Made by a program: the position numbers and the translations under genes
Notes under the pieces: generated by a model
Told to the model about the DNA's origin: nothing
Databases searched by the model: none
What the model saw: the letters and a program-made list of their open reading frames with translations, nothing else
In this document: piece by piece, positions 39,720-41,798 of the stretch
Layout: the number at the start of each line of letters is the position of its first letter
How positions within the stretch are numbered: position 1 is the stretch's first letter
Source of the DNA: Fructobacillus parabroussonetiae
GTDB taxonomy: Bacteria > Bacillota > Bacilli > Lactobacillales > Lactobacillaceae
Direction: 5' to 3'
Assembly (NCBI RefSeq): GCF_018437265.1
Contig: NZ_JAAMFL010000005.1
Location: 62,001 to 126,000 of the forward strand
DNA: 64,000 nucleotides

Positions 39720-39721
39720 AG

Positions 39722-39750
39722 ACAGATGAATTCGTTCATCTGTTTTTTTT
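39722..39750 (+). terminator. Terminator after folate gene
   Basis: ACAGATGAA pairs with TTCATCTGT, followed by eight T. Confidence 0.9.
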
Positions 39751-39751
39751 C

Positions 39752-39780
39752 TTGAAAACACGAACAGATGTTCGTATAAT
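39752..39780 (+). promoter_or_regulatory. LexA-controlled promoter (SOS box) of error-prone polymerase operon
   Basis: -35 TTGAAA (39752-39757), a 17-bp spacer and -10 TATAAT (39775-39780). The spacer holds CGAACAGATGTTCG (39761-39774), which matches the Gram-positive LexA/DinR consensus CGAACRNRYGTTYC at its core positions. It touches the -10 box, so bound repressor would block polymerase. Confidence 0.9.
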
Positions 39781-39816
39781 TAATAAAGCAATAACCGTGA
39801 GGGGAGGAAGCAGTCG

Positions 39817-41154
39817 ATGGCCAAGCAGGACTTTCAAAAAATCTATGAAAACGAAGAGCGACGGGTTATTTTTTTGATTGATTCAAAGAGTTTCTATGCC
39901 AGTGTTGAGTGTGTGGAGCGTGGGCTGAATCCGCTAAAAGCGATGTTAGTCGTGATGTCGCACCAAGAAAACCTGAAGGGCGGTCTTGTGCTGGCTTCTT
40001 CGCCGATGGCTAAAAAACGCTTGGGTATCTCCAACGTGACCCGACAAAAGGACGTCCCGGACACACCCGGTCTGGTAAAGGCGGAACCAAGGATGAACCG
40101 TTACATTCAAAAGAACCTGGAAATTAACGCCATTTATCAGCGCTATGTGGATGCGGATCACTTACTGCCATATTCGATTGATGAATCAATTTTGGACGTG
40201 ACGGCCTTTTGGCGATTGTTTGCTGACTCGCCGAAAGAACTTGCCCGGATGATTCAAAAGCAAGTGTTAAAAGAGACGGGCATTTATCTTTCAGTAGGTA
40301 TTGGGGACAGCCCAGCGTTGGCGAAGCTTGCCCTGGACTTAGCTGGCAAAAAAGACGCTCATTTGTTAGCAGAATGGCATTACGAAGATGTGCCAGAAAA
40401 GCTGTGGTCCGTGACCGATTTTTCCTCTGTTTGGTCAATTGGCCGGAAGACAGCGAAGAAGTTGAACGCTTGGGGCATCAATTCGCTTGGTGATTTAGCC
40501 CACTACAATCCCTATGTGTTAAAGAAAAAGTTGGGATTAATGGGGGAACAGCTTTACGCCTTGTCTTGGGGAATCGACCGGTCGGATTTAGCAGAGAAGG
40601 TTCGAGTCAAAAACAAATCCTATGGGAATTCACAGGTGCTGCCCTATAATTACCGGAATCGTGAGGCGATTCGGGTGGTCATTTTAGAAATGGCGGATCA
40701 AGTGGCGTCCCGATTACGGGCACATGGGGTTCAGGCCAGTTTAGTGAGCCTTTACCTTGGCTATGCCGAACAAAAAATCGACTTTGATGAACGCCATGAT
40801 CGTTCAACCGGTTTGCACCAGACGATTCGAATTGAGCCGACGAATAAGACGAAAACGATGATGGACGTTTTGGAACAGCTATTTACCCGCTACTGGGACG
40901 GGCGTCCAGTCCGTCATATTGGTGTGACGATGGCTGATCTGGGAAGTGAACGGATGCAGCCCTTGTCTCTTTTTGACGCGCCAGCAGAAGAATCAGAAGA
41001 AAAACAAGATCCCGTTGATCAGGTTGTCGATCAATTACGGCAGCGCTTTGGATCAGCGGCTGTTGTTCGCAGTCTTTCCTTAGAACACGGTGCAAGAGCC
41101 ATTGAACGTGCTGGACTAGTCGGTGGACACAATGGAGGAAATGCTTATGAATAA
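39817..41154 (+). CDS. Y-family DNA polymerase (UmuC/UvrX-like), SOS-regulated
   Basis: A 445-residue translesion polymerase. The start of the palm is IFLIDSKSFYASVECVERG (first metal-binding Asp), the second acidic motif is PYSIDESILDV, and the ssDNA-binding HhH region is SIGRKTAKKLNAWGI. The C-terminal 110 residues include the little finger and a tail ending near LRQRFGSAAVVRS. This branch matches Bacillus UvrX/YqjW rather than DinB (about 355 residues). The LexA box controls it. The stop overlaps the YolD-like gene by 8 bases, so the three genes form one operon. Confidence 0.93.
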   Translation: MAKQDFQKIYENEERRVIFLIDSKSFYASVECVERGLNPLKAMLVVMSHQENLKGGLVLASSPMAKKRLGISNVTRQKDVPDTPGLVKAEPRMNRYIQKNLEINAIYQRYVDADHLLPYSIDESILDVTAFWRLFADSPKELARMIQKQVLKETGIYLSVGIGDSPALAKLALDLAGKKDAHLLAEWHYEDVPEKLWSVTDFSSVWSIGRKTAKKLNAWGINSLGDLAHYNPYVLKKKLGLMGEQLYALSWGIDRSDLAEKVRVKNKSYGNSQVLPYNYRNREAIRVVILEMADQVASRLRAHGVQASLVSLYLGYAEQKIDFDERHDRSTGLHQTIRIEPTNKTKTMMDVLEQLFTRYWDGRPVRHIGVTMADLGSERMQPLSLFDAPAEESEEKQDPVDQVVDQLRQRFGSAAVVRSLSLEHGARAIERAGLVGGHNGGNAYE

Positions 41155-41542
41155 GAATTTTTTAACCGGTGACGATCTGGTTCAGACCGTTGCGCAGTAT
41201 TTTAAACAAGATTATCGCGAGCGAGGAAAGGTGAAGTGGAACGGCTTTTTTCTATCTGACCACACGGCGAAGCTGAAGCAAAAGGCGCAATTTGAGCAGG
41301 GGGCCGAAACGGCGACTTGGCAGGAAGCTTTGTCCATGGAGCAAATCCAAGAACAGGTGCGATTGGCTTTCGAGCGTAATAAACCTCTTTCTTTACAGGA
41401 AGCACAAGTTGACCAAGATAACCGCATTCCAATGATCCAAATTGGCCGGGTGAGCGGCTTTTATTTGGATGGCTTTTATTTCGATGACCTACCCGTTGAT
41501 TGGGAAACGGTGCGCTTTGCAGAGGTTCATCATGGTAAGTAA
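41147..41542 (+). CDS. YolD-like protein, probable partner of the Y-family polymerase
   Basis: A 131-residue protein. GGAGG at 41134-41138 selects ATG 41147. The segment YRERGKVKWNGFFLSDH, followed by LSMEQIQEQVRLAFERNKPL and a C-terminal strand set (IGRVSGFYLDGFYFDDLPVD), resembles the YolD-like family, where an RGxxKW motif is typical. In Bacillus, yolD-like genes follow the Y-polymerase genes uvrX and yqjW. Here the gene overlaps the polymerase by 8 bases and the next gene by 11. The family call is by motif and context; a specific activity is not known. Confidence 0.65.
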   Translation: MNKNFLTGDDLVQTVAQYFKQDYRERGKVKWNGFFLSDHTAKLKQKAQFEQGAETATWQEALSMEQIQEQVRLAFERNKPLSLQEAQVDQDNRIPMIQIGRVSGFYLDGFYFDDLPVDWETVRFAEVHHGK

Positions 41543-41798
41543 TCAAGAAATCAATGACTTAGTTAAGCTCATTCAGCCGCTGTTTAAAAAGGAAAGGAAC
41601 ACCATTTATGAAGTACACCTCGTTTATCAGCTCTTTTCCGATCAGTTAAACATTTTCTTTGAGTGGGGACGAATTGGCCATGCCACCACTTCTCGGCAAA
41701 TCAAGAGCCTGCCACATGCGACTTTTGAACAGGTTCACACACTACAACAAGAACTCACCAAACGCTTGCCATCTGTGCCAGTTCGGGTAAATAGTTAA
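41532..41798 (+). CDS. Small WGR-domain-like protein in SOS operon
   Basis: An 88-residue protein from ATG 41532, overlapping the YolD-like gene. It reads strand-strand-FFEWGRIGHATTSRQIKSL, then a helix with HATFEQVHTLQQEL. The Trp-Gly-Arg-Ile-Gly motif followed by a strand and a helix is the pattern of WGR domains, which bind nucleic acids in PARPs and bacterial MolR-like proteins. The protein is almost only this domain. It is the last gene of the LexA-controlled operon. Assignment is by motif only and could be wrong, but position implies a role in the damage response. Confidence 0.55.
   Translation: MVSNQEINDLVKLIQPLFKKERNTIYEVHLVYQLFSDQLNIFFEWGRIGHATTSRQIKSLPHATFEQVHTLQQELTKRLPSVPVRVNS

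Follow-up and report, generated by a model that had tools for sequence, protein, structure and literature searches.

A LexA-boxed operon of Fructobacillus joins a Y-family polymerase and a YolD-like protein to a third small protein that recurs beside such pairs in Lactobacillaceae

The pairing of a Y-family DNA polymerase (PolY) with a YolD protein has been proposed as a putative Gram-positive counterpart of Pol V, with YqjW-YqjX-RecA and UvrX-YolD-RecA of Bacillus subtilis as examples of the putative mutasome (available portions of PMC6511836 and PMC12926913). A RecA-like motif has been reported for this polymerase group (PMC6511836, available portion), and the N-terminal arm of YqjX/YolD is described as unstructured and, in models, as inserted in the polymerase (PMC12926913, available portion). 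The available portion of PMC13335488 reports that loss of YqjX in B. subtilis has little effect and that neither a PolY2-YqjX nor a PolY2-RecA interaction was detected; both results count against reading such a pair as a Pol V-like complex. At stake is whether Gram-positive bacteria possess a true multi-subunit Pol V.

Here we describe an operon in which a third small gene, g3, follows the genes for a polymerase and a YolD-like protein. It lies in the window (the whole 64-kb stretch of DNA analysed, from a genome of 1.22 Mb in 14 contigs), and its features are as follows:

39720..39750, forward strand: terminator-like hairpin and T run, 3′ of the 5-formyltetrahydrofolate cyclo-ligase gene (sequence reading)
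39752..39757, forward strand: -35 element TTGAAA (sequence reading)
39761..39774, forward strand: LexA (SOS) box CGAACAGATGTTCG, a perfect palindrome inside the promoter spacer (motif scan and orthologous loci)
39775..39780, forward strand: -10 element TATAAT (sequence reading)
39800..39809, forward strand: ribosome-binding site AGGGGAGGAA (sequence reading)
39817..41154, forward strand: gene 1, Y-family (possibly UvrX/YqjW-like) DNA polymerase, 445 aa (PF00817, PF11799, alignments)
41147..41542, forward strand: gene 2, YolD-like protein, 131 aa (alignment, hhalign, model, Foldseek)
41532..41798, forward strand: gene 3 (g3), 88 aa, unnamed alpha-beta family (alignments, model, surveys)

The gene 5′ of the operon encodes a 5-formyltetrahydrofolate cyclo-ligase (PF01812, E = 2.3e-34), and the ORF downstream, from about 41896, is by eye a pyruvate oxidase. 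The promoter spacer between TTGAAA and TATAAT measures 17 nt. As the initial annotation had read them, the SOS box is contained in this spacer and the three genes overlap, by 8 bases (gene 1/gene 2) and 11 bases (gene 2/gene 3). Across the two close pairs of Fructobacillus loci, dN/dS for the three genes is 0.02-0.13, which indicates purifying selection on each, and the relatives of gene 2 that were returned come from Fructobacillus (8 of 10 loci), Convivina (1), and Lactobacillus sp. (1). That annotation had also known of no described system with this trio, which holds for the trio, not found in the literature searched, but not for the polymerase-YolD pair, which is published (PMC6511836 and PMC12926913, available portions). 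The main texts of those two papers, supplements lying outside the search, contain no word beginning with WGR or Lactobacill. The g3 protein is not mentioned in the available portions of PMC6511836, PMC12926913, PMC3765255, PMC13335488, and PMC2174512, whose supplements could hold a mention.

The SOS box consensus was checked against the window’s genome, in which recA has a perfect box upstream and lexA and uvrB have one-mismatch boxes upstream (all three genes identified by Pfam). No second perfect CGAACNNNNGTTCG occurs in the 64-kb window besides the operon box, and the genome holds seven perfect sites. Loose matches are enriched neither in the window (34 at two mismatches or fewer versus 28.1 expected) nor genome-wide (36 sites at one mismatch or fewer versus 60 for a backwards control), so that the weight of the case for the box rests on its position and its conservation. 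Ten orthologous loci carry the box, nine of them in perfect form and one with a single deviating base; it lies about 40-60 nt 5′ of the polymerase start, with TTG before it and TATAAT after it. The boxes at all ten loci and at recA, lexA, and uvrB show, at the level of sequence, that the operon has a LexA-type promoter.

The wider family was scanned from rough starts, taken from profile matches or longest frames. At 34 polymerase-bearing g3 loci, one of which (L084) holds a polymerase fragment only, the best site sought from 260 nt upstream had 0-1 mismatch in 28 cases and two mismatches in 6, compared with frequencies of 0.4% and 5.6%, respectively, in shuffled upstream regions. Six of the 12 inspected polymerase-YolD loci without g3 had no site at one mismatch or fewer from such rough starts, and all but one of the six group in a single polymerase clade; by upstream scan, LexA control thus does not extend to every member of the wider family. 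In one genus (L134-L138) YolD is encoded separately, the polymerase being absent from the stretch, and a LexA-like site precedes the gene in 5/5 cases.

The genome has other boxes as well. A perfect box at contig C1:195404-195417 (L005 1405-1418) precedes the probable start of an Abi_2-family gene (PF07751, E = 6e-21) by roughly 90 bases, and this abortive-infection-like gene may therefore be under SOS control. One-mismatch boxes are found 5′ of a glutaredoxin-domain gene (contig C1:186376, L011) and of a calcineurin-like phosphoesterase gene (contig C10:12437, L012). The gene for a 106-residue protein (contig C13:2816-3133; L010 2816-3133, L158) has a perfect LexA box in its promoter spacer, and of six loci checked for this box five have it in perfect form and one with a single deviating base; the protein, present in 13/13 genomes of the genus, matches the barrel part only of the YolD-like family, the arm being absent (E of about 8e-7 for a single-sequence search). 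The gene for exonuclease VII (L009) also has a perfect box, which sits in a terminator-like hairpin and was dropped as a chance occurrence; L006 and L007 each offered no convincing target for their perfect boxes.

In terms of domain content, gene 1 matches PF00817 (IMS, E = 8.4e-27) and PF11799 (IMS_C, E = 2.2e-21), both above cut-off, and its carboxylates D22, D122, and E123, residues with a catalytic role, are invariant in 11/11 aligned polymerases, with D122-E123 aligning with the SIDEA motif of Pol IV. Both the domains and the carboxylates support the earlier assignment of gene 1 as a Y-family polymerase; as to a place in the YqjW/UvrX subgroup, the best NCBIfam match, PRK03103, scores 304.6 bits, below its cut-off of 381. 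Near residue 381 lies QPLSLF, a motif resembling the clamp-binding consensus, and the C-terminal tail, LVGGHNGGNAYE, is conserved, with LVGGHNGGN.YE identical in 11/11 sequences bar one column. When averaged over the family, the best match to the N-terminus of the genome’s RecA falls at residue 399, the expected place (15/300 column shuffles do equally well); in single sequences the RecA-like motif is the top site in 6/11, the window’s polymerase not among these, and its presence in the polymerase is only suggestive. The window’s genome has one further IMS-domain gene.

Gene 2 has a near-invariant arm, DYRxRGKVKWNGFFLSDHT, in 11 sequences. A Pfam search with the window’s protein alone gave no PF08863 row at E = 1; 9/40 aligned family members match PF08863 (best E = 5.2e-4), and hhalign of the family against 23 PF08863 sequences (the 23 of 30 YolD loci that entered the comparison alignment) gives Prob 94.7 over 86/93 columns, with E = 5.9e-8 as the value for one comparison. 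The model of gene 2 is confident in its C-terminal part only, a putative small (SH3/Sm-like) beta-barrel for which the top Foldseek rows are Hfq (prob up to 0.98, best E = 0.16). Its conserved arm is modelled with low confidence, which fits the unstructured YqjX/YolD arm (PMC12926913, available portion). By its profile, gene 2 is a divergent YolD, in support of the YolD-like assignment first given to it.

We compared 70 g3 loci, 30 of them given by the search tool (the window’s own included) and 40 picked by hand from the hit list of a narrower first profile. The polymerase, YolD, and g3 occur together in 55, two of which (L080 and L084) have a broken polymerase; five have an adjoining polymerase and g3 with no adjacent YolD (L061, L062, L064, L075, and L079), one has a broken polymerase and g3, and nine have g3 alone. 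The two small genes do recur beside the polymerase elsewhere, against the possibility raised with the first reading that homologs would never be found with it, and the recurrent linkage of g3 to the polymerase-YolD pair is plain from these gene neighbourhoods. Among the best 150 matches for each family, at least 100 g3 genes have an adjacent YolD (71 as g3-YolD and 29 as YolD-g3). The order polymerase-YolD-g3 is found in the Fructobacillus/Convivina group and some others and the commoner order polymerase-g3-YolD elsewhere, the two orders corresponding to two polymerase groups on a tree; in L056 and L057, g3 and YolD form a single ORF (a g3-YolD fusion) after the polymerase.

The next gene overlaps the polymerase by exactly 8 bases at 51/56 junctions, whichever gene follows, and in the g3-first order YolD overlaps g3 by 8 bases in 17/27 cases, counts for which the start nearest the stop was chosen, a choice that favours overlap. 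Such overlaps suggest coupled translation of the genes. The initial idea of three proteins made in a fixed ratio survives to that extent only, for overlaps say nothing about stoichiometry, and in some genomes g3 or YolD lies away from the polymerase gene.

Fifty places had YolD but no g3 neighbour among the matches listed, and twenty of them were also inspected. Twelve of these hold a polymerase and YolD without g3, among which L151 has another ORF between the two and L153 has YolD first; L134-L138 are the polymerase-free YolD loci described above; L139 and L141 combine a disrupted g3 with transposase-like ORFs; and the stretch of L140 ends at a contig end. In L139, transposase-like ORFs (by eye) split g3 into two pieces, between the polymerase and YolD genes. 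On a tree of 57 polymerases, the presence of g3 needs three changes and the arrangement six, where five is the minimum possible. The tree was built by a quick method, rooted at its midpoint, and drawn without B. subtilis sequences from loci chosen for containing g3 or YolD, and its pattern fits either more than one recruitment of g3 or an early gain with losses.

Taken together, we consider it probable, in a joint judgement on operon and third protein, that this is an SOS translesion-synthesis (mutagenesis) operon, predicted to be induced by damage, and that it encodes a Pol V-like translesion module with g3 as a third accessory protein. LexA would keep the operon repressed until RecA filaments brought about LexA cleavage, and the polymerase would then be made with its two small partners through coupled translation. 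The polymerase would bind the sliding clamp, the YolD arm would dock into it as modelled for YqjX, and g3 would join as a third accessory subunit contacting the polymerase and/or YolD. There g3 could tune access to, or activity at, lesions, possibly via RecA or DNA, so that the module would act like Pol V (UmuD′2C-RecA), YolD taking the part of UmuD and g3 being an extra component. The g3 protein may be regarded as a putative further subunit of the polymerase module, and where it is linked it is a testable candidate for such a subunit in food-associated bacteria.

The distribution of g3 bears on this reading. With a diverse profile (E = 0.001), g3 was found in 186/301 Lactobacillaceae genomes from 28/40 genera (151/301 with the narrower first profile at E = 0.01), and the YolD-like family in 242/301 genomes from 35/40 genera. 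Both occur in 185 genomes, YolD only in 57, g3 only in one, and neither in 58; the share with YolD, 185/186 among g3-positive genomes versus 242/301 overall, gives P = 2e-28, uncorrected for shared ancestry. The 57/301 genomes with YolD and without g3 indicate that g3 is optional. In 398 Bacilli-class genomes, which include three Lactobacillaceae among the rows listed (two of these without a g3 match), weak g3 matches were seen in three genomes besides the window’s own, all with internal stop codons, of which that in L097 looks like a decayed remnant. No intact g3 was found in these sampled Bacilli outside Lactobacillaceae, to which the family is, as far as tested, confined by sequence.

Matches to g3 were found in 220/72,556 plasmid records, including 170 from Lactiplantibacillus and 22 from Pediococcus, and in 2/50,697 phage records; a second g3 query matched zero phage records. 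In the plasmid record NZ_CP103040.1 (L154 2516-2836) the gene is labelled acetyl-CoA carboxylase, a misnaming by our reading, and in another (L157) hypothetical protein. The family described here flags this misleading database name, which some plasmid records carry. In L. plantarum WCFS1, peroxide raises the expression of umuC and lexA, and 15 affected genes have a LexA-type motif upstream (PMC2174512, available portion).

The nine g3 loci without a nearby polymerase can be read in more than one way. Within 300 nt upstream, seven have a LexA-like site (one mismatch in six and two in one, L059) and two have none. In L044 and L048 the site lies between TTGACT and TATAAT, and in L086 and L087 it is about 298 nt from g3, with a small ORF in between. 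Since L044/L048, L071/L078, and L086/L087 are look-alike pairs, the sites amount to about four independent instances (one for each pair, plus L059), and from them g3 appears to be an SOS gene by itself. Several of the contexts are phage- or mobile-element-like by eye (L044, L048, L059, L071, and L078). An extension of the favoured reading, which we advance only tentatively, is a four-component SOS mutasome of polymerase, YolD, g3, and RecA in Lactobacillaceae, in which g3 would be a new subunit family recruited more than once to the polymerase-YolD pair and phages and plasmids would carry polymerase-free, LexA-controlled g3 that retunes the host’s error-prone polymerase during damage.

The same lone, LexA-boxed, mobile-looking copies, along with the genomes that have YolD and no g3, would also be expected if g3 were an SOS-regulated passenger with a separate job (e.g., a damage checkpoint or phage or plasmid physiology), co-transcribed because it is needed simultaneously. 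We judge this rather unlikely, given the presence of YolD in all but one of the g3-positive genomes, the two gene orders and the g3-YolD fusion, and the five loci in which g3 adjoins the polymerase with no YolD beside it. As a special case of the favoured subunit reading, g3 could be a brake that limits the polymerase, with phage and plasmid copies damping host mutagenesis. The LexA-like sites 5′ of polymerase-free copies and the last place of g3 in the Fructobacillus order agree with a brake, whereas in the commoner order g3 comes directly 3′ of the polymerase, and the data do not separate an activator from a brake; we regard the brake as unlikely.

The initial annotation had called the third gene WGR-like, an idea that goes back to an EWGRIG stretch. 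The model of g3 (pLDDT 89.9) is an alpha-beta-beta-beta-alpha-beta fold of 88 residues, for which structure-library searches found no clear known relative. Pfam WGR (PF05406) does match 5/46 family members (best E = 7.8e-4), PARP-1 chains appear in a PDB profile search at E = 0.59 to 1.4 (an unrelated designed protein does better, at 0.0058), and a chain of a PARP2/HPF1 entry is at Foldseek rank 34 (prob 0.90, E = 0.15), but the window’s g3 reaches 15.2 bits where the cut-off is 22, hhalign to one true bacterial WGR, a single sequence, gives a probability of 0.5% over 7 residues, and exact EWGRIG occurs in only 3 of 23 displayed rows of the 46-sequence alignment, so that a WGR-domain DNA-binding protein is very improbable. 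VIA has no PARP rows among the 50 entries listed, which is uninformative either way. Only EWGRIGH aligns to a true WGR domain; homology to WGR was rejected at the sequence level, and the name is not borne out. The likeness to WGR proteins is the short EWGRIG motif of some Fructobacillus g3 members, and the difference is that no profile-level homology of g3 was found.

What is known, then, is the PolY-YolD mutagenesis operon, and what is new is a third component, of which no description was found in the literature searched. The operon resembles the PolY-YolD(-RecA) mutasome in that a Y-family polymerase with a conserved tail adjoins a YolD homolog behind a LexA-type promoter; it differs in having an extra small protein between or after the two genes, and in the variable gene order and g3-YolD fusion seen in Lactobacillaceae. 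With Pol V it would share, by an analogy drawn through the available portion of PMC6511836, an error-prone polymerase induced in the SOS response and a small partner protein with a beta-barrel. It differs from Pol V in that, among the matches listed, genes 2 and 3 and their relatives have none to the S24-peptidase (UmuD-type) family; the place of the UmuD-type protein is taken by a partner of YolD type and by g3.
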